From: a bacterium
GTDB lineage: Bacteria; CLD3; SB21
Assembly (NCBI GenBank): GCA_013360215.1
Contig: JABWCP010000012.1
Location: forward strand, 1 to 64,000
DNA length: 64,000 bases
Reading direction: 5' to 3'
How positions within the stretch are numbered: position 1 is the first letter of the stretch; each line of letters opens with the position of its first letter. Of this stretch, positions 39,654-59,412 are shown piece after piece. A program made the translations under genes and the position numbers. The notes beneath the pieces are model-generated. The model saw only the letters and a program-made list of their open reading frames with translations, made no database searches and had not been told where the DNA came from.

Positions 39654-41396
39654 ATGACAAAAAAATCGGTCGGTAATTTTATCCTCGTCCTGCATACGCA
39701 TCTACCCTATGTGCTGCATCATGGTCAATGGCCGCATGGCATGGAGTGGCTTTATGAAGCCGCGTCCGAAACTTATATTCCGCTGCTCAATGCCCTGAAT
39801 GCATTGCAAAACGAAGGCCGCCGGCCGCGCCTTACCATCAGCATGACTCCGGTCATTACCGAACAACTTGCGAGCGAAGCGTTTAAAAAAGAATTTGTCG
39901 CTTTTTTGTACGATGAGATTGAACGCGCCCGCACGGATATGGTGTCTTTTGAAAAAAGTCCGACGGAGAAAAAGTTAGTTTCGCTGGCGGAATATTGGTT
40001 GGATTTTTATCAAAATACGCTCAAAGATTTTACACTCACATACCGCCATGATTTAATCGGCGCGTTTCGCACCTTACAGGATCAAGGCGTACTTGATATC
40101 ATCACCTGCGGTGCTACCCACGGATATTTTCCTCTCCTCGGTACCGATGCCAATATCCACGCGCAAATCCGAATGGCCGTCGTGACACATGAAAAATATT
40201 TTGGTCGTAAACCGCGCGGAATATGGCTTCCGGAATGCGCCTATCGCCCCCGGTATGTATGGACACCGCCCGTGGCTTCGGCGCTTGGCTCCGAGCCGCG
40301 TCTTCGTAAAGGTATCGAGGAAATACTGGACGCTAACGGTTTGGAATATTTTATCGTTGATTCCTCGCTCGTCGAGCCGGGTCGGGCCGTACCGATGTAC
40401 ATGGGACGGTTTGAAAATCTACGCAAACTGATGATGCGTTTGGCCAGTGAAAATCGCCCGATACCTAAAGCGGATTTTCTGCAATCGGTATATGATGTCT
40501 ATAAAACCAAATCATCGTACGACGCACCCGGTAATCCCGTTTCCATTTTTGCAAGGGATATGGAAACATCCATGCAGGTTTGGTCCAGTGAACAAGGTTA
40601 TCCCGGCGGCGAATGGTATTTGGATTTCCATAAAAAGCACGAGCAAAGCGGACACCGCTACTGGCGCGTCACCAGTCTTGAGGCCGATCTCGGTCTAAAA
40701 GCACCATACGAGCCTCAAAAAATCCAATCGGCCATCGCCGATGATGCACAGCATTTTGTGCAAGCCGTGCGTCAGGCACTCACTCGATTTAAAACAAAAC
40801 ACGGATACGAAGGCACGCTTACCGCTCCTTTCGATTCCGAGCTTTTCGGGCATTGGTGGTTTGAAGGTCCCGGTTTTCTCAAAACCATCTTCGAACTGAT
40901 GGATGACGATCCCGCAATCCAAACTATGCATTGCGCCGAATCGTTGGATCAGAATCCGCCTGAAAAAATCATCGCTATTCCGGAAGGCAGTTGGGGTGCG
41001 GGCGGCAACCACTATGTGTGGTTTAATCATGAGGTGGATTGGATGTGGCCTTTTATCTACAATGACGAAGCGGCTATGCGCGATCATGTGCAGCGATGGA
41101 ACAATAATACCGATCCCGAATGGACCGCGATCATCAAACAAATGGTGCGCGAACTTTTTCTTCTCGAATCTTCCGATTGGCCTTTTTTGATCAGCACGCA
41201 GTCGGCGATAGATTATGCGACCGAGCGCTTTATGGAACATCATACTGCTTTTGAAAAATTAGCACGTCTGTCCGAATATCATTGTAACGGTTCTGCATTG
41301 CATCCGGACGACCGCGCCTGGTTACGCGAAATCACATCGCAAGATCACATTTTTGATGATGCGCTGATTGATCCGAATTGGTTTTTGAACGATTGA
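39654..41396 (+). CDS. GH57 family 1,4-alpha-glucan branching-type enzyme (DUF1957)
   Basis: A 580-residue glycoside hydrolase family 57 protein with the DUF1957 C-terminal region, the arrangement of GH57 branching enzymes that form alpha-1,6 branches in glycogen. The (beta/alpha)7 barrel begins LVLHTHLPYVL with catalytic-site histidines. The predicted nucleophile is Glu194 (GIWLPECAY) and the acid/base is Asp394 (APFDSELFGHWWFEGP). Cytoplasmic, no signal peptide. It is transcribed on its own from a short intergenic region after a terminator. No other glycogen genes flank it, but a subtilase with a glycogen-binding-like domain lies 7.4 kb downstream. Confidence 0.85.
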   Translation: MTKKSVGNFILVLHTHLPYVLHHGQWPHGMEWLYEAASETYIPLLNALNALQNEGRRPRLTISMTPVITEQLASEAFKKEFVAFLYDEIERARTDMVSFEKSPTEKKLVSLAEYWLDFYQNTLKDFTLTYRHDLIGAFRTLQDQGVLDIITCGATHGYFPLLGTDANIHAQIRMAVVTHEKYFGRKPRGIWLPECAYRPRYVWTPPVASALGSEPRLRKGIEEILDANGLEYFIVDSSLVEPGRAVPMYMGRFENLRKLMMRLASENRPIPKADFLQSVYDVYKTKSSYDAPGNPVSIFARDMETSMQVWSSEQGYPGGEWYLDFHKKHEQSGHRYWRVTSLEADLGLKAPYEPQKIQSAIADDAQHFVQAVRQALTRFKTKHGYEGTLTAPFDSELFGHWWFEGPGFLKTIFELMDDDPAIQTMHCAESLDQNPPEKIIAIPEGSWGAGGNHYVWFNHEVDWMWPFIYNDEAAMRDHVQRWNNNTDPEWTAIIKQMVRELFLLESSDWPFLISTQSAIDYATERFMEHHTAFEKLARLSEYHCNGSALHPDDRAWLREITSQDHIFDDALIDPNWFLND

Positions 41397-48820: not shown

Positions 48821-50215
48821 TTGAAAAAATACCCTGTCCTTTCTTTACGCGAACGCGTCCGGCCGCATGCCGACTATGATGGTAGTGGTGTGACTATCGC
48901 TTTTGTGGACAGCGGATATTATCCACATCCGGAATTGCGCGGTCGTATTCTAAAATTTGTGGATGTGTCATCGGAAGCATTTACGGAAAAAGATTTTCAT
49001 ACAATCCGGCCGTCCAGTTGGCACGGTACGATGGTAGCCTGCTCCGCCTGCGGGAACGGCATCTGGTCCAAAGGTTATTATCGCGGAATCGCATCCGGAG
49101 CTAATGTAGTTTTGATCAAAGCCTTTGACGGTAAAAAAGTAAAATCGTCGTATATCCTTAAATCCCTCACATGGATTATCGCCCATCACAAGCCGTATCA
49201 TATTCGCGTCGTCAGTGTATCCGTGGGCGGTGACCGCAATGAACCTTCCGAAAAAAGCCGCATTTGCAAGGCTATTCACCGTTTACATCAGTTAGGCATT
49301 ACCGTGATTGCGGCGGCCGGCAATAATCCTTCACGACCGGTGATTCCACCGGCGAGCTGCCGCTTTGCTATCGCCGTCGGAGGTATCTACGATCATAACG
49401 ACAAAAACCCGGATACGGCCAGCGAATATGGTTCCTCCTACGGTATTACTTTAGATGGTCTGAGTAAACCGGAAATCGTAGCGCATGCCCGGTTTTTACC
49501 GGCACCAATGCTGCCGGAAAATTTTACATATGCGGAATCGGAAATTCTGCATGTACTTTATAAAACACCGGCCAGTAATCTGAAGCGTAAGTTAAGGTCG
49601 TTGATACATAAAACGCGCTTAGACGCGGCTATTCTTTCTCTCAAGCCGGCAGAAATCAAAAAAGCTATACGGCAACGCATGGACGGCGAAAAATTTATCG
49701 CACCGGGTTTTCAACACGTTGATGGCACTTCATTTGCCGCGCCGATCATAGCCGCCGTAGTGGCGCAAATGCTGGAAGCTAATCCATTGCTGACGCCGAC
49801 CATGATACGTATGATCCTCGAAACGACGGCCAAACGTATACCCGGCATTGCACCCGAGAAACAAGGATTCGGCCTCGTTCAAGCCAAGGCTTGTGTAGAA
49901 CAGGCTTTGATAGAAACGTCTATGCCGGAAATTCACGAGTCTCCATTGATACTCAAAGATCGCATTGTTTTTTTGTATTACCATCGCAATATCCGCAAGG
50001 TCAATCTTGTCGGTGATTTTACGGATTGGCAAAAGAACAAATTACTCTTCGTTGAAATTCGTCCCGGTGTATGGCGTGTTGATATACCCCTTTTATCAGC
50101 CGGGCAATACCAGTACAAATTTTTTGTGGATGATACTTTATGGACCGAAGACCCGCTCAATCCGCATAAAACTGCCGACTCGTTCGGAGGAATGAATAAC
50201 ATTCTGCATATCTGA
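48821..50215 (+). CDS. subtilase (S8) fused to a C-terminal CBM48/AMPK-beta-like domain
   Basis: A 464-residue protease with no signal peptide. The subtilisin triad is Asp30 (FVDSGYY), His68 (WHGTMVA) and Ser304 (DGTSFAAP), with oxyanion Asn168 (AAAGNN). A helical insert (about 225-295) separates the Asn and Ser. The last 85 residues (380-464) form an E-set domain with NLVGDFTDW, Trp418 and GQYQYKFFVDD, as in glycogen-binding domains of AMPK and branching enzymes. The TTG at 48821 is the only possible start, since a stop codon lies directly before it, and no ribosome-binding site is visible. A protease carrying a glycogen-binding-type domain is unusual. Confidence 0.82.
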   Translation: MKKYPVLSLRERVRPHADYDGSGVTIAFVDSGYYPHPELRGRILKFVDVSSEAFTEKDFHTIRPSSWHGTMVACSACGNGIWSKGYYRGIASGANVVLIKAFDGKKVKSSYILKSLTWIIAHHKPYHIRVVSVSVGGDRNEPSEKSRICKAIHRLHQLGITVIAAAGNNPSRPVIPPASCRFAIAVGGIYDHNDKNPDTASEYGSSYGITLDGLSKPEIVAHARFLPAPMLPENFTYAESEILHVLYKTPASNLKRKLRSLIHKTRLDAAILSLKPAEIKKAIRQRMDGEKFIAPGFQHVDGTSFAAPIIAAVVAQMLEANPLLTPTMIRMILETTAKRIPGIAPEKQGFGLVQAKACVEQALIETSMPEIHESPLILKDRIVFLYYHRNIRKVNLVGDFTDWQKNKLLFVEIRPGVWRVDIPLLSAGQYQYKFFVDDTLWTEDPLNPHKTADSFGGMNNILHI

Positions 50216-50414: not shown

Positions 50415-51005
50415 ATGAAAAATTTACTGAAAATCTTCACATTCGTTTTCGCAACCCATGTAATGGTGGCCGCTCAAACGATCGAAGTCGCAAACGAAGA
50501 ACCGCTTACGCCCGAGCCAAAAAGCACTTACTATGAAACCAAAAACCGTATCGGCTTTGCTGCAGGAAATGTATCCGGGGTTGGCTTATCATACGAACGT
50601 GATCTTTTTAGAAATTTTTCAGCACTGTTTGTCATCGGCGGTGTTGCCCAAAAAAGCCAAAGCGATTTTAATACCGGCCTTACTTTCAAATACACTTTTA
50701 GCCGAATCAACAAACGTGTCAGTGTCAATGTCGTAAGTGGTGGCAGCTATTTTCTTGACATTGACCGTTTTGGGATCTACGACCCTACAACCGGCGATCG
50801 CAGTGAATCGGAACGTCGTCGTAACTATATCAAAATGGGATTGGGTCTCGGAATGACGGCGTTATTTTTCGACGGACGTTTGGGTATTGATGTCAATTTT
50901 ATCGGTATGGGCGCCAGCTTTCAGAAAAAACAAAACAAGAAAGACTATCAGCTTGGCGATAAACCCATTCGCGGACCTCAAGTTAATCTGACGTATCACT
51001 TTTAA
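50415..51005 (+). CDS. outer-membrane beta-barrel-like protein
   Basis: A 196-residue exported protein with signal peptide (MKNLLKIFTFVFATHVMVAA). The rest is strand-rich with alternating polar and aromatic residues (NRIGFAAGNVSGVGLSYERDLF, LTFKYTFSRINKRVSVNVVSGGSYF, GLGLGMTALFFDGRLGIDVNFIGMG) and ends LTYHF, with a C-terminal aromatic residue, as in OmpW/OmpX-like barrels. AGGGAG precedes the ATG. Preceded by a CRP-type site. Function unknown. Confidence 0.72.
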   Translation: MKNLLKIFTFVFATHVMVAAQTIEVANEEPLTPEPKSTYYETKNRIGFAAGNVSGVGLSYERDLFRNFSALFVIGGVAQKSQSDFNTGLTFKYTFSRINKRVSVNVVSGGSYFLDIDRFGIYDPTTGDRSESERRRNYIKMGLGLGMTALFFDGRLGIDVNFIGMGASFQKKQNKKDYQLGDKPIRGPQVNLTYHF

Positions 51006-51591: not shown

Positions 51592-54500
51592 ATGAGTATC
51601 ACATCTAAAAAAATATTTCGTCGTCTGTTTTGTTTTTTCCTTTTTCTTTTCATGTTGGCTGCCGATACGAAGGCGCTGGATCCGGAGCGCAGTGTAACGC
51701 AATACGTGCACGATGTTTGGTTGAAAGAAGACGGTTTACCCGGAATCTCCGTACTGTCGTTTTATCAAACCCGTGAAGGGTATTTATGGATCGGTTCGTT
51801 TGAAGGATTGGCGCGTTTTGACGGCGCAAAATTTACGCTTTTCAATCGCCGTTCCATTGATGCTTTTCTCAGTTACGGGCTCTGGCGAATCTTAGAAGAT
51901 AAACACGGTTATATTTGGATGGGAACCAACGGCAACGGTATTTATCGCTTTAAAGATCCTAACTTCCAACGCCTTGCCGTAACCAACGGGCTCACCAATG
52001 ACAATGTTTTATCACTGGCGATGGATCAGGATGAAATAGTTTGGGCGGGCACGCGAAAGGGATTAAACAGAATACGAATTATTTCACAAGATAGTTTTGC
52101 CGTTGAACCCGTGATGTATCGCAGTAATGTACTGCAGGACGTTTTTGGGTTGTGTACCGATCACGACGGCACCGTATGGATAGGCGCTACAAATACTATT
52201 TATCGTTATGTCGAAGGCCGCCTTGAGGAGTTTGCAAACATCGGCGAGCGCATCCGTTCGATGTATGTAGATCGCGATAATAGGATATGGATCGGCACCA
52301 CCAACCCCGGCGTTTTTCAAATTTCAGAAAATCAACTGCGCCATTTTACAACTAAAAACGGGCTCCCCCCGGAATCCATCTGGCGTGTGTGGTATGACCG
52401 TGACGGCAATGTTTGGTTGGGTTCGGATGGTATGGGTCTTTTTCGCGCCAAACCCGGAAGTTTCCGCGACGAAAACGAATTGATTTCCCTTGAGCAGTTT
52501 TCAGAAAAAGAAGGATTAACCAATAATCGAATTTCGGCGCTTTTTGAGGATCGGGAAGGCAGTTTGTGGATCGGCACATTTCGCGGTGGTCTCAATCGCC
52601 TGCGTGACGGAAAATTTATCACTTATGCATCCGCCAACGGAATGGTGCACCCGGTTGTTTATCCCATCGTACAGGAACATAACGGCGATATGTGGTTTGG
52701 TACGGAGGGCGGTTTGTCGCACTATTCGGGCAACCGTTTTGTAAATTACACGACGGCCAACGGGCTTTCCAATAATCAGGTACGCGGCATTGTTCGTGAT
52801 TCCAGGGGCCGCCTGTGGGTCGGCACGTACGGTGCGGGTTTAGATATTTTTAATCCGGCCAGTGGACGATTCGCGCCGGCTCCGTCTGCGATTAACCACG
52901 CCTTTCGCAACATTCGTGATATGCTTAAAGACCGCGAAGGCCATCTGTGGATCGGCACTATCAACAGTATCGGATTGATCAAACCAGACGGCAGCCACCG
53001 TACTTTTACCATGCAAGACGGCCTGCTTACCACATCTATTTTATGTTTGTACGAAGACATCTATGGCAACGTGTGGGCCGGTACGGATGGTGGCGGCGCT
53101 GCACGCTACGATCGTAACAAAGGTTTTTTCAGAGTACTGACGATGAAAGACGGATTGAGCAGCGATATTGTTTTTGCAATACACTGTGACCGGGACAGCG
53201 TATATTGGTTTGCGACGCAAAGCGGCATTACGCGCTACGATCCACGCGCCACAGATTTGCCGTTTGCTTCGCTCACCGTACGCCAAGGTTTGCCGGCCGA
53301 TGCGGCATTTGAAATCCTCGAAGATAATCACGGTTACATCTGGCTTGGCGGTGCAGAAGGAATTTTTCGCATCAGTAAAAAGGATTTTGAAGATGTCGCG
53401 CGCGGTAAAACCAATCAATTGACCCCGCTTCTTTTTGGCAGACCGGACGGTATGAAGACCAGCCAAACAACCCCTTCGGGACGTGCGCACAAAACATCCG
53501 ACGGAAAGCTTTGGTTTCCCACCCCTAAAGGCGCCGTGGTCATCGATCCGGATAAAATAAAAACCAACCCTGTACCGCCACCCGTGGTGATCGAACGATG
53601 CATAGCCGATGGGCAATCATGGCCGATACAAAACGATGTGGTATTGCCGCCCGGTATTTTGCGAATTGAGTTTCAATACGCCGCTTTGAGTTTTCTCGCT
53701 CCGCAGCGCGTATTTCACAAATTTAAACTCGAAGGATTTGACACCGATTGGATGGATGCCGGTACACGACGCACGGCATTCTACACGGGACTTCATCCCG
53801 GCGAATACACTTTTAAAGTCATCGCCTGCAACAACGACGGCATCTGGGCATCGGAGCCGACTTCGTTTTCTTTTACGATTCGTCCGCATTTTTACGAAAC
53901 ACGGTGGTTTTTGCTTCTCATTTTCGGCGGTATGATCGCTGCGGCTTTATCATTATACCGTTGGCGTGTTCGCCACTTGATGCACCGTGAAAAGGAACTA
54001 GCCGCATTGGTCAAACTGCGCACGCATAATCTGGAAGAAGAAAAAAAACGCACCGAGGACGCACGCATCGAAGCCGAACGTCAACGCGAAGAGGCGTTGC
54101 GCGCCAATGAGCTTAAAACACAATTTCTCGGTATGGCATCCCATGACTTAAAAAATCCGTTAGCGGCTATCATAAGTTATACCGATCTGATCATCGAAGC
54201 GTATGACGATAAAGCTCAGTCCATGCGCGATCTGGGTTATATTCGCAAGGCGGCCCATCGCATGCTTCATCTTATTAACGGTCTTCTCAATACGGTTAGC
54301 CTGGAAAGCGGAAAAGTCGTCCTGCAAAAAGAAAAATTAGATGTATCCGATTTGGTGGAACAGGTTCTTTTTAGTAATCAACAAATGCTGGAACGAAAAC
54401 GTCAACATGTGCAGGTACAAACTGTACCCGGACTCTATGTTAACGCCGACCGTGACCGTCTCTACGAAGCGCTGGATAACCTGATCAGTAACGCGATCAA

Positions 54501-54789
54501 ATATTCCGATTACGATAAAACAATACGCGTAGATTTGGGCATGAATGAACTTAAAATCATAATTCGAATCACGGATGAAGGTCCCGGAATGACTACCGAC
54601 GATATGAAAAAACTTTTCGGTAAATTTCAACGTCTTTCAGCCAAACCTACCGGCGGAGAGACATCTACAGGCTTGGGTTTGTCTATCGTCAAACAAATCG
54701 TCGAAATGCATGAAGGCCAGGTTTGGGCCGAAAGTGAATTCGGTAAAGGCAGTACCTTTGTCGTGGAGTTGCCAAGATTCACTTCATAG
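51592..54789 (+). CDS. propeller-sensor histidine kinase
   Basis: A 1065-residue transmembrane sensor kinase. A signal peptide or first anchor (about 8-28) leads to a periplasmic two-component-regulator propeller: repeated blades of the type DREGSLWIGTFRGGLNRL (about 30-630). A Y_Y_Y domain (about 700-765; ending RPHFYETRW) precedes a membrane helix, then a coiled segment, HisKA with His851 (MASHDLKNPL) and HATPase (NLISNAIKYS, DEGPGM, GLGLSIVKQIV). It has no receiver domain. Such sensors usually monitor extracellular ligands, often glycans. Only 189 bases separate it from its larger paralogue. Confidence 0.92.
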   Translation: MSITSKKIFRRLFCFFLFLFMLAADTKALDPERSVTQYVHDVWLKEDGLPGISVLSFYQTREGYLWIGSFEGLARFDGAKFTLFNRRSIDAFLSYGLWRILEDKHGYIWMGTNGNGIYRFKDPNFQRLAVTNGLTNDNVLSLAMDQDEIVWAGTRKGLNRIRIISQDSFAVEPVMYRSNVLQDVFGLCTDHDGTVWIGATNTIYRYVEGRLEEFANIGERIRSMYVDRDNRIWIGTTNPGVFQISENQLRHFTTKNGLPPESIWRVWYDRDGNVWLGSDGMGLFRAKPGSFRDENELISLEQFSEKEGLTNNRISALFEDREGSLWIGTFRGGLNRLRDGKFITYASANGMVHPVVYPIVQEHNGDMWFGTEGGLSHYSGNRFVNYTTANGLSNNQVRGIVRDSRGRLWVGTYGAGLDIFNPASGRFAPAPSAINHAFRNIRDMLKDREGHLWIGTINSIGLIKPDGSHRTFTMQDGLLTTSILCLYEDIYGNVWAGTDGGGAARYDRNKGFFRVLTMKDGLSSDIVFAIHCDRDSVYWFATQSGITRYDPRATDLPFASLTVRQGLPADAAFEILEDNHGYIWLGGAEGIFRISKKDFEDVARGKTNQLTPLLFGRPDGMKTSQTTPSGRAHKTSDGKLWFPTPKGAVVIDPDKIKTNPVPPPVVIERCIADGQSWPIQNDVVLPPGILRIEFQYAALSFLAPQRVFHKFKLEGFDTDWMDAGTRRTAFYTGLHPGEYTFKVIACNNDGIWASEPTSFSFTIRPHFYETRWFLLLIFGGMIAAALSLYRWRVRHLMHREKELAALVKLRTHNLEEEKKRTEDARIEAERQREEALRANELKTQFLGMASHDLKNPLAAIISYTDLIIEAYDDKAQSMRDLGYIRKAAHRMLHLINGLLNTVSLESGKVVLQKEKLDVSDLVEQVLFSNQQMLERKRQHVQVQTVPGLYVNADRDRLYEALDNLISNAIKYSDYDKTIRVDLGMNELKIIIRITDEGPGMTTDDMKKLFGKFQRLSAKPTGGETSTGLGLSIVKQIVEMHEGQVWAESEFGKGSTFVVELPRFTS

Positions 54790-54978: not shown

Positions 54979-57900
54979 ATGCAATCATGTCATCCTCTTA
55001 GAAGCCGTGTTCAAATAACCCTGATTTGGTTACATTGCCTTTTCGTCACCGGTTCCTTATACGCGCTGGATCCGGATCGGCGCGTGACACAATACATGCA
55101 TACGATGTGGACGACCGATCAGGGGCTGCCACAAAATAATATTACCTCTATGATCCAAACGCGGGACGGCTATATCTGGTGTGGCACGTTGGATGGGCTT
55201 GTACGATTTGACGGTGTACGCTTTGAAGTTTTTGATAAGCGTAATACGCCGGCCATTCGCAATAATGCAATCATCACGATGTTCGAAGATCGCTCCGGTG
55301 GTTTGTGGGTAGGTACCATAGGCGGAGGCCTAGTGCATTATAAGAACGGAAAATTTATTTCTTACGGATTAACGGAGAAGTTCCCCAGTGCGTATATCTT
55401 GCATATGGCCGAAGACGAACAAGGGCGCTTGTGGTTCGCTACGCGCGACGGATTGGTCACTCGCGGCGATACGTCGTGGATTACCTATACGGCAAAAGAA
55501 GGTTTAACGCATACTTCCGTACGTTCGCTGTTTTTTGATCGTAAAGGACGGCTTTGGATCGGCTCTTCGGTCGGACTCAGTTTAATGGAAAACGGCGTGA
55601 TTCGTAAAATTTTCGCGCACGAACTTGCCGACAAAAACGTCACTTCGATCACTTCCGACAGCACGGATATCATTTGGATTACGGTACTCGGCAAAGGCGT
55701 GTATCGTATCAAGGGAGATAGCATCGCACACTTGCAAGCACCCAAAAGTATTCCTCATAATTTTATCAATGCGATCGCTCGTGATAAAAACGGTAATCGC
55801 TGGTTGGCTACCGATGGCGGTCTCTATCGTGAACATCACGGACGCTTTGAACGATTTATGGATGAATCGAATTTTCCTCTCGACAAAGTCATGTGTCTGC
55901 TGGAAGATCGCGACGGCAATTTGTGGTTTGGCACCAACGGTAGCGGGCTTAACCGTCTGCGTGATGAAAAATTTATCACTTATACGACCCTTGAAGGTTT
56001 TAAAGACAACAGCGCCAACGTCGTATTCGAAGACAGCCGTGCTCGCATCTGGGTCGGTACCGAAGCCGGCGTTTCGATCATTGACGGCGATACGATCCGT
56101 AATCTCGGTGAATCCAGCGGACTGACCAACACCAAAGTGCGTTCTTTTGCGGAAGATACAGACGGACGAATATGGGTCGGCACGCGCGAAGGTGTTTTTG
56201 TATGGAATGAGGTACGTTTCGAATCATGGAATGCGCGCCTCAAAATTCCACCCTTGGTCATTCTCTCCATGCTGCGCGCGCGCGACGGTACGATGTGGAT
56301 CGGCACCGGCGGCGCTGGTGCGGTATCTTACAAACCTCAAAACGTACAACAATATACCTCCAAACAAGGTTTAGCCGGCATCGTCGTGATCGCTATAGCG
56401 GAAGACTCGCTCGGGCGAATGTGGTTTGGCACCAATAGCGGACTGAGTCGCTTCGACGGAAAAAACTTTGTCACATACAATTCCAAAAACGGTATGTCAT
56501 CTGATATTTTTTTATCTCTGTATGTGGACAAAACCAATACGCTGTGGGCGGGTACATTTGGTAACGGACTCAACCGCTTACAAAACGACTCCATCGCCAT
56601 ATTTACGACGGCCGATGGTTTATTCAACGAAAACATGTATTCCATTCTGGAAGATGGCGAAGGTTATCTGTGGATGAGCTGCGGTAAGGGCGTGTTTCGC
56701 GTCGCCAAAGAAGATTTTGAACGATACCGTCAGAAAATAATACCCGTTATACCATGCAAAGTGTTTGGCCGCAGCGACGGTATGCGCAGCAGCGAATGCA
56801 ATGGCACTACACAACCCGCCGCATGGATGACCCGCGGCGGATGGCTTCTGTATCCGACCGGTAAAGGTCTTGCTGCCGTGAATCCGCGTTTGTTGTCGCG
56901 CGTTTCCCCGTCACCGCTGGTCGTCATTGAGCGCATGCTGGCTGAACAAAAACTCATCACCTTAGGTGAAAAAATCGAATTGACGCCGGGACACCGCCGT
57001 ATCGAATTTACATTTACCGGTTTAAGTTTTACCGCTCCGGAAAACAACACATTTATGTACCGGCTTATCGGTTTTGATAAAGAATGGATCCAAGCCGAAA
57101 AAACTCGTCATGCCGTCTATACCAATGTACCGCCCGGTGCATACCGCTTTGAGGTGATGGCTTCCAATAGCGACGGCATTTGGTCCTCGCAACCGGCGAC
57201 AGTATTATTTTCAATTGATCCGTATTTTTTTGAGACCGTGTGGTTTTACAGTTTGTCCGGTGTATTCCTTTTGTATCTCGGTTTTACGTATTACCGTTCG
57301 CGTGTGCGCGAACTGCACGAACGTCAGGAAGAACTGACACGGCTTGTACAGGAACGCACACGTAATCTGCGCGAGGAAAAAGAAAAAACCGAACACGCGT
57401 TGCGGGAATCCGAGGAAGCTAAACGCGAGATCGAAAAATCTCAGCAGGTCATTCAGTCGCAATCACAAAAATTGATCGAATTGGATAAAGTAAAAACCAA
57501 TTTCTTTACCAATATTTCTCACGAATTTCGTACCCCGCTCACATTGATCATCGGACCTTTGGAAGATGTATTGCGATCCGCCACGCTTTCGGCCGATCAA
57601 CGCGTTTCATTTGAACTCATGTTACGTCAAGCCAAGCAACTATTGGGTTTGATCAATCAACTTCTGGAGGCAGCCCGGCTTGAGTCCAATCGGGTTCAGT
57701 TTCATCCTTCACTTCGACCGCTGGTTCCTTTTGTTCGCGAACTGACTTCTATGTTTGAATCGGCGGCTCAGCGTAAAGGCATTCATCTTTCGCTGGAGAC
57801 CTCCGACGAGAAAATACAATTGTACTATGACCTTCATGCGATGGAACGCGTTTTGACAAATCTTATTTCTAATGCGATCAAGTTTACCGAGCAAGGGTTT

Positions 57901-59412
57901 ATAAAAATTACGATCAAACATAGTGAACATACGCATCGTCCGTCGGTTGTCATTTTTGTCGAAGACAGCGGACGCGGTATTCCGCAGGAACATCTCGGCC
58001 ACATCTTTCAGCGTTTTTATCAAGCGGACGGTGTCGAAGCCGATCAACTGGGGAGCGGAATAGGTCTTTCGCTGGTCCACGATTATGTGGAGATGCACCG
58101 CGGCTTGATCACTGTCGAAAGCACGGTCGGCAAAGGCACACGTTTTATGATAACGCTTTTTACCGGCGAAGAACATTTATCCGGTACGATCACACCTCAT
58201 GCTGAAATAAAAACGGAGACCGAATTTATTTACGCCCGTTCCATCGCCGCACTTTCATCCGAACATAACATTACTCCCGAAATATCAGCGCCGGATCCGA
58301 CGGAGCGTCAAACGGCCGATAAGCCTAAGGTATTGATCGCCGATGATAACGCCGATATTCGTTTGTACTTATATAACCTCTTGCGGGACGAATACCGCAT
58401 GATCATGGCGCACGACGGCGCCGCGGCGTTGGATTTGCTTCAACGGGAATTTCCGGATATGGTGCTCAGCGATGTGATGATGCCCAATATGGACGGAATG
58501 GAATTGTGCCGTCGTATCAAATCCGATGAACGCACCCGCCACATTCCGGTCATACTGCTCACCGCACGCGCCGATGAATCCAGCAAAGTGGAAAGCCTCA
58601 ATCTGGGTGCGGACGATTTTGTCGCCAAACCATTTAGCGCTAATGAACTGAAAGCACGCATGCGCAATTTGCTCGGCATCCATGCCATGAAACTGCAGTT
58701 GATCGAACAAGAAAAAATGGCTTCTTTAGGACATCTTGCCCGCGGTGTCGCACATGAAATCAATAATCCGCTCTCCTTTGTAACAGGTAATCTTTCCGTT
58801 TTGGAATCACGGCTAGCCAAACTACATCCGGATGAGAATATTAAACCCATTGTCACCGATATCATGAGCGGAACCAAACGCATTGCCGCGATCGTGCAAC
58901 ACTTGCGTGAATTCACACGTCTGGATGAAGCCGAACGTAAATTCGTTGATCTGTCCGATATGGTGGATAACATTCTCACGCTCTTAGCCGGCGAAATGCA
59001 ATCCGATATTCGCATCGAAAAAAATATCGCACAGGTGCCCATGATTGATTGTTTTCCGCGCGATCTCAATCAAGCGATAGCACAAATCCTTATGAACGCG
59101 ACATATTATGTACGTGAACGCAACCGCATTGAAAACCGGTCTCTTGGTCATATTACCATTCATCTGAACAAAACCGATGAGAAATATGTCGAACTTATCA
59201 TAGAAAACGACGGCTTCCCGATTGCACCCGAAATTCGCGAACATATATTTGAACCCTTCTTTACGACCAAACCCATCGGCAAAGGTACCGGACTGGGCTT
59301 AAGCGCTGTTTACGGCATCATTCGCCGTCACCACGGACAGATACGCTGCGTGTCGGAACCGTCCCAGCCGGTGCGCTTCATTATAATGTTACCGTTTGCA
59401 ATACCGTCATAA
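54979..59412 (+). CDS. propeller-sensor hybrid histidine kinase with two kinase modules
   Basis: A 1477-residue paralogue of the previous gene. Domains in order: signal/anchor, propeller blades (about 30-640, e.g. DRDGNLWFGTNGSGLNRL), Y_Y_Y (about 700-765), membrane helix (about 755-780), HisKA with His848 (NISHEFRTPL) and HATPase (about 840-1075), receiver with Asp1165 (LSDVMMPNMDG), then a second HisKA with His1259 (GVAHEINNPL) and HATPase ending GTGLGLSAVYGII. The second ATPase has a divergent N-box and an ENDG in place of DxGxG. This sensor-kinase-receiver-kinase order is unlike the usual hybrid kinase, which ends in a DNA-binding domain. No receiver with output lies nearby. Confidence 0.92.
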   Translation: MQSCHPLRSRVQITLIWLHCLFVTGSLYALDPDRRVTQYMHTMWTTDQGLPQNNITSMIQTRDGYIWCGTLDGLVRFDGVRFEVFDKRNTPAIRNNAIITMFEDRSGGLWVGTIGGGLVHYKNGKFISYGLTEKFPSAYILHMAEDEQGRLWFATRDGLVTRGDTSWITYTAKEGLTHTSVRSLFFDRKGRLWIGSSVGLSLMENGVIRKIFAHELADKNVTSITSDSTDIIWITVLGKGVYRIKGDSIAHLQAPKSIPHNFINAIARDKNGNRWLATDGGLYREHHGRFERFMDESNFPLDKVMCLLEDRDGNLWFGTNGSGLNRLRDEKFITYTTLEGFKDNSANVVFEDSRARIWVGTEAGVSIIDGDTIRNLGESSGLTNTKVRSFAEDTDGRIWVGTREGVFVWNEVRFESWNARLKIPPLVILSMLRARDGTMWIGTGGAGAVSYKPQNVQQYTSKQGLAGIVVIAIAEDSLGRMWFGTNSGLSRFDGKNFVTYNSKNGMSSDIFLSLYVDKTNTLWAGTFGNGLNRLQNDSIAIFTTADGLFNENMYSILEDGEGYLWMSCGKGVFRVAKEDFERYRQKIIPVIPCKVFGRSDGMRSSECNGTTQPAAWMTRGGWLLYPTGKGLAAVNPRLLSRVSPSPLVVIERMLAEQKLITLGEKIELTPGHRRIEFTFTGLSFTAPENNTFMYRLIGFDKEWIQAEKTRHAVYTNVPPGAYRFEVMASNSDGIWSSQPATVLFSIDPYFFETVWFYSLSGVFLLYLGFTYYRSRVRELHERQEELTRLVQERTRNLREEKEKTEHALRESEEAKREIEKSQQVIQSQSQKLIELDKVKTNFFTNISHEFRTPLTLIIGPLEDVLRSATLSADQRVSFELMLRQAKQLLGLINQLLEAARLESNRVQFHPSLRPLVPFVRELTSMFESAAQRKGIHLSLETSDEKIQLYYDLHAMERVLTNLISNAIKFTEQGFIKITIKHSEHTHRPSVVIFVEDSGRGIPQEHLGHIFQRFYQADGVEADQLGSGIGLSLVHDYVEMHRGLITVESTVGKGTRFMITLFTGEEHLSGTITPHAEIKTETEFIYARSIAALSSEHNITPEISAPDPTERQTADKPKVLIADDNADIRLYLYNLLRDEYRMIMAHDGAAALDLLQREFPDMVLSDVMMPNMDGMELCRRIKSDERTRHIPVILLTARADESSKVESLNLGADDFVAKPFSANELKARMRNLLGIHAMKLQLIEQEKMASLGHLARGVAHEINNPLSFVTGNLSVLESRLAKLHPDENIKPIVTDIMSGTKRIAAIVQHLREFTRLDEAERKFVDLSDMVDNILTLLAGEMQSDIRIEKNIAQVPMIDCFPRDLNQAIAQILMNATYYVRERNRIENRSLGHITIHLNKTDEKYVELIIENDGFPIAPEIREHIFEPFFTTKPIGKGTGLGLSAVYGIIRRHHGQIRCVSEPSQPVRFIIMLPFAIPS

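Follow-up and report, generated by a model that had tools for sequence, protein, structure and literature searches.

A widespread bacterial subtilase, apparently intracellular, that carries an AMPK-beta-type CBM48 domain

Control of bacterial glycogen is usually ascribed to allostery and to transcription of its enzymes. Among proteases, the intracellular subtilisins (ISP) of Bacillus are cytosolic members of family S8; they possess an inhibitory N-terminal extension (LIPY/F) and lack a CBM. Binding of alpha-glucan by a CBM48 domain is described for AMPK. In the complex of AMPK beta-1 with beta-cyclodextrin, Trp100 and Trp133 stack on glucose, Lys126 and Asn150 form hydrogen bonds, and Leu146 and Thr148 contact the sugar hydrophobically (PMC9788615); mutation of W100, K126, W133, L146 or T148 was shown to reduce glycogen binding markedly (PMC2642990). 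The CBM48 domains of CE1 esterases, on the other hand, do not bind starch, and those of Dysgonomonas mossii displayed no affinity for the glycans tested (PMC8040265). Therefore, the CBM48 fold by itself does not prove glucan binding.

Here, a gene that joins a subtilase to a CBM48 domain was studied in a stretch of 64,000 nucleotides of bacterial DNA, which is called the window below. No description of a subtilase-CBM48 fusion was found in the open-access literature. Both domains are known; what is apparently undescribed in that literature is a conserved cytosolic family that unites them.

The gene and its two domains

The gene occupies positions 48821..50215 of the forward strand and encodes 464 aa, with a TTG start and a TGA stop. 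The coordinates, frame and length given in the first-pass annotation were exact, and so were its claims that the S8 triad is intact, that the product is a cytoplasmic protein without a signal peptide and that the last 85 residues resemble a CBM48/AMPK-beta domain. A further TGA is the codon immediately 5' of the TTG; an upstream extension that would add a signal peptide is thereby precluded, and this option was rejected. A hydrophobicity scan likewise revealed neither a signal peptide nor any hydrophobic segment, and the cytoplasmic location is well supported. The product is thus an apparently intracellular subtilase fused to an AMPK-beta-type CBM48 domain.

The protease domain (residues 21-351; 48881..49873, forward strand) was matched by the Pfam model Peptidase_S8 with an E-value of 3.6e-40. 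Asp30 (48908..48910), His68 (49022..49024) and Ser304 (49730..49732) of the triad and the oxyanion Asn168 (49322..49324), all on the forward strand, were invariant in the 63 aligned sequences. An AlphaFold (AF2) model of the whole protein, built from this 63-sequence alignment, had a pLDDT of 94.6 and a pTM of 0.93; its protease domain adopted the subtilisin fold, and a Foldseek search with the model retrieved subtilisins with a TM-score normalised by target of about 0.8, and Tk-SP as well. Having the Asp-His-Ser order, the oxyanion Asn and the modelled subtilisin fold, the protein is a complete S8 subtilase by catalytic residues and fold and is predicted to be a protease.

The catalytic domain starts about 20 residues from the N-terminus, and a propeptide domain is absent. 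In many relatives, a (V/I)(L/I)PTPxRL stretch (consensus residues ~8-15) precedes the protease domain; this stretch, which is degenerate in the window copy, is possibly an N-terminal control element. Before the catalytic Ser, a helical insertion of four helices (residues 235-289; 49523..49687, forward strand) was recognised from DSSP of the AF2 model and from the sequences of relatives, CBM-less members included.

The C-terminal domain (residues 380-464; 49958..50212, forward strand) was assigned by Pfam to AMPK1_CBM (PF16561; residues 386-464, E 1.5e-9, 38.4 bits against a curated cut-off of 26.8) and to CBM_48 (PF02922; residues 380-438, E 1.5e-5, 25.7 bits against 22.4). When these 85 residues were searched alone, as the first-pass annotation had proposed, both E-values were better than within the whole protein (4.8e-11 and 1.7e-6, respectively); with matches to CBM48/AMPK1_CBM, a non-carbohydrate E-set family is not favoured. 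The top matches of a phmmer search against the PDB were the CBMs of AMPK beta-1 and beta-2 (E 5.6e-7, about 1e-6). Alignments to AMPK-beta ran from residue 13 to residue 84 of the 85 in the domain and so took in the second Trp; those to branching enzymes (GlgB) stopped at residue 54-57 of 85, short of that Trp. Structure prediction for the domain alone gave a confident beta-sandwich of the CBM48 fold (AF2 pLDDT 96.5), and nearly all Foldseek matches listed for it were CBM48 proteins (branching enzymes, SNF1 beta, SEX4 and CE1 esterases), with one enterobactin esterase listed as well.

The aromatic sugar-binding residues looked for in this domain were found. According to the phmmer alignment to AMPK-beta, and with all positions on the forward strand, Trp403 (50027..50029), Lys433 (50117..50119), Trp441 (50141..50143) and Asn459 (50195..50197) are equivalent to Trp100, Lys126, Trp133 and Asn150 of AMPK-beta1 and were conserved in 63, 63, 62 and 49 of the 63 sequences, respectively. 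Leu146 and Thr148 are not kept: the window protein has F455, a position at which most relatives have Tyr or Phe, and G457 (Gly in 60/63). Judged from the alignment, these two replacements lower the case for a site identical to that of AMPK, not the assignment to CBM48, and glucan binding by the domain is likely, given the retained aromatic residues. Other bacterial AMPK1_CBM-like domains often contain the two Trp and the Lys as well, though several have lost the Lys, so the idea that the W/K/W motif is unique to subtilase-CBM proteins was discarded. The window genome itself encodes a second AMPK1_CBM-like protein, of 126 aa (L026, G000:C1:186001-186222); it has FLY in place of the YKF of the subtilase and has thus lost the binding Lys.

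Distribution, architectures and gene context

A search for the same fusion in other genomes, also proposed at first pass, was successful in many genomes and across phyla. The fusion was present in five other genomes of the window's family (57-60% identity) and in two of the same class (37-38%). A scan of 84,980 species genomes yielded 187 relatives, the best 80 of which came from Bacteroidota, Acidobacteriota, Chloroflexota, Sericytochromatia, KSB1, Calditrichota, Chlorobiota and Ignavibacteriota. Among these best 80, about 64 reached through the CBM, 15 were without it and one was cut by a contig end; because the ranking favours members like that of the window, 64/80 is not a prevalence. The gene is sporadic, since 3/151 sampled Chloroflexota genomes were matched, the starting genome being one of the three. 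Of 17 carrier genomes, 15 had a single match, one had a single gene in two pieces, and G061 had a second subtilase copy, which was CBM-less. The tree was broadly phylum-wise, and the CBM changed between present and absent at least six times, the contig-end case counted among them. It may be concluded that the subtilase-CBM fusion is a widespread but sporadic family across bacterial phyla.

Some individual cases deserve mention. In one genome of the window's family (G005), the fusion gene occurs twice, once on each of two contigs (L007 and L034/L038). In a Sericytochromatia locus (L068:5375-7223), the gene is split into two ORFs of 200 and 401 aa, probably by a sequence frameshift. For Anaerolineae, a stop codon between the S8 and CBM parts was considered and ruled out: the downstream reading is an esterase gene and contains no CBM.

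The N-terminal part varies between lineages. A short basic tail, an HxHxH tail (13/80) or a CxxC-CxxC zinc-ribbon-like stretch (37/80) was found in the best 80 of the 187 relatives, and a hydrophobicity scan of N-termini revealed no signal peptide in relatives. In Chloroflexota, a PfkB sugar-kinase domain and the ribbon precede the core (L048:4774-7410, L074, L078, L084 and L097), so that PfkB, the zinc-ribbon-like stretch and S8-CBM48 form one protein of kinase-protease-glucan-binding type; by its predicted domains, this protein ties the family to sugar a second time and independently. Sericytochromatia and the window's class include members with a tyrosine-recombinase-like (integrase-like) N-terminal domain. 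Three proteins of 932-1000 aa (L065:5512-8307, L069:5509-8307 and L072:5467-8466) combine a tyrosine-recombinase-like N-terminal extension, matched by Pfam for L065 and L069, with a metallo-beta-lactamase-type domain behind the CBM; no known system matching this architecture was found.

As for the surroundings of the gene, the first-pass annotation had pointed to a GH57 branching-type enzyme 7.4 kb upstream. This gene (39654-41396) is real and ends at that distance, but the stretches read from five genomes of the window's family showed no GH57 gene close to that of the subtilase. Its proximity in the window therefore carries little weight, and the linkage was dropped as support for a glycogen role. 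The neighbours of the window gene are of mixed kinds. A gene for a small outer-membrane-type protein (50415..51005, forward strand), mentioned as context only, is 49-59% identical to an ORF that adjoins the subtilase gene at four more of the family's loci (L029, L032, L033 and L034). Further downstream lie two adjacent genes for large sensor kinases (51592-54789 and 54979-59412) with a Reg_prop propeller, Y_Y_Y, HisKA and HATPase, the second also with a response-regulator domain.

Gene context in some relatives, though varied, is better support for a glycogen link than GH57. In Flavobacterium muglaense (L051:983-13395), genes for gluconolactonase, GMC oxidoreductase, subtilase-CBM, SDR, an MGH1-like glycosidase, a glycogen debranching enzyme (GDE_N/GDE_C; GDE_C E 1.7e-108) and aquaporin follow one another on one strand. 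This species is cultured, and the locus is a tractable place for testing function. An MGH1-like gene was found in six further loci, and part of a debranching enzyme in L041. Glucokinase, 6-phosphogluconolactonase and OpcA accompany the gene in L052, and a GH15 enzyme and 6-phosphogluconolactonase in L095. The window's own family, like many other loci, showed no sugar-gene context. In the 357 kb that surround carrier loci in eleven genomes, the only glycogen enzymes were four MGH1-like GH and one debranching enzyme, and control DNA of these genomes (285 kb) contained no MGH1-like or debranching gene, numbers that are too small for a claim of enrichment. The window genome contains two GT5 glycogen-synthase-type genes and a phosphorylase, which makes a glycogen-type store plausible. 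GT5 was present in 23/26 carrier genomes and in 8/14 control genomes, a presence that is hardly informative because GT5 is common.

Possible roles of the fusion

The simplest reading is that an intracellular subtilisin-type protease is docked by its CBM at the alpha-glucan store, tying protein turnover to the state of the store; we assign it a probability of roughly 0.45. The CBM48/AMPK-beta-type domain would bind alpha-1,4-glucan chains, either glycogen or large malto-oligosaccharides, and thereby dock the subtilase at the store of the cell, where it would trim or remove proteins of sugar and glycogen metabolism. As a result, protein turnover would be coupled to the state of the glucan store. 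This is suggested by the invariant triad and Asn, by the subtilisin fold, by the CBM48 fold with its retained AMPK contacts, by the lack of an export signal, by the CBM in about 64 of the best 80 relatives, by the sugar and glycogen genes beside several loci, by the PfkB fusion and by GT5 and phosphorylase in the window genome. Against it stand the loss of the L146 and T148 equivalents, the occurrence of W/K/W outside subtilase-CBM proteins, the CE1 domains that do not bind starch, the non-conserved GH57 neighbour, the CBM-less members and the lack of sugar context in the window's family and in many loci.

The main alternative is that the CBM is an allosteric sensor and not an anchor. In this case, an alpha-glucan or branched oligosaccharide would toggle the protease, as glycogen inhibits AMPK, and the substrates would be soluble. 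The same type of domain senses glycogen in AMPK (McBride 2009, PMC2642990), and the single confident arrangement of CBM and protease in the AF2 model would suit signalling between the domains. Moreover, since no inhibitory propeptide domain was seen, a cytosolic protease of this kind would need another control. This alternative, which is compatible with docking, is considered unlikely to be the whole account, though it deserves attention.

It is also doubtful that the E-set domain binds no sugar and serves to stabilise the protease, either structurally or through protein-protein contacts. C-terminal beta-domains occur in many subtilases (most of the length can be aligned with Tk-SP 3afg, furin and others), and both the CE1 example (PMC8040265) and the non-conserved T148 and L146 equivalents agree with such a role. 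However, the contact Trp and Lys residues are invariant or nearly so in a domain whose mean column identity among the aligned relatives is 47%, and the same protease core is found in CBM-less members, so folding does not require the domain.

Binding of another glycan or of a small sugar, tied to neighbouring sugar-oxidation genes and not to glycogen, appears improbable. The set of GMC oxidoreductase, gluconolactonase, MGH1-like and aquaporin genes does recur in Bacteroidota and Acidobacteriota, but the domain has the contact residues of the AMPK module, which binds alpha-glucan, and the Flavobacterium cluster includes the glycogen debranching enzyme.

In Chloroflexota-type loci, the subtilase gene is often followed by genes for a putative esterase (Pfam just under the cut-off), a protein without a Pfam match, CP_ATPgrasp and GCS2, behind CBM-bearing and CBM-less subtilases alike; the run of esterase, CP_ATPgrasp and GCS2 was seen in L086, L089, L090, L094, L096, L100, L103-L107 and L113, mostly Chloroflexota. 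This run and the fusions to integrase-like and metallo-beta-lactamase domains could fit a processing protease of a peptide or protein modification pathway, or a part of a conflict system, with the CBM being secondary, but this is very improbable, as the amidoligase-type context was seen only in Chloroflexota-type loci and partly in Saprospiraceae, and PADLOC returned only a generic subtilase model and weak partial matches to IetS. The full-length model of IetS, an anti-phage S8 protein, was not matched, and an anti-phage system was rejected because PADLOC was negative beyond the generic subtilase.

Returning to the docked protease, a broader idea can be put forward tentatively: the family may read the glycogen store, the CBM recruiting or switching the subtilase so that glycogen-bound proteins are degraded as the store fills or empties. 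With the same reserve, such a protease could be regarded as doing in bacteria, by proteolysis, what AMPK does when it senses glycogen. If this is true, proteolysis at the granule would be an added layer of bacterial glycogen control. The protein offers a concrete test case for whether bacteria sense their own glycogen store, and a family found in many phyla, with a copy in a cultured Flavobacterium, makes a link between proteolysis and stored sugar testable.

Comparison with known systems

The window protein resembles subtilisins of family S8 (the nearest solved ones being Tk-SP, 3afg/9ues, and subtilisin BPN') in fold, in the Asp-His-Ser order and in the oxyanion Asn, whereas it is without their signal peptide and propeptide domain and has a helical insertion before the Ser and a C-terminal CBM48. 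Compared by description only, Bacillus ISP shares with it the cytosolic location and the S8 family and differs in having the inhibitory extension and no CBM. With the AMPK/SNF1 beta CBM (PF16561, CBM48), the domain has in common its fold, its length, the W100, K126, W133 and N150 equivalents and a C-terminal strand of NN(I/V)L type; in contrast, it is attached to a protease and not to a kinase scaffold, and it has Phe in place of L146 and Gly in place of T148. The N-terminal CBM48 of GlgB shares the fold and the GxFNxW motif, but not the catalytic domain that accompanies it. The phosphoglucan phosphatase SEX4/DSP4 (Foldseek 3nme; phmmer 4pyh) is likewise an enzyme other than a glycosidase combined with CBM48; it is, however, a phosphatase of plants whose substrate is the glucan itself, whereas the window protein is a predicted bacterial protease.
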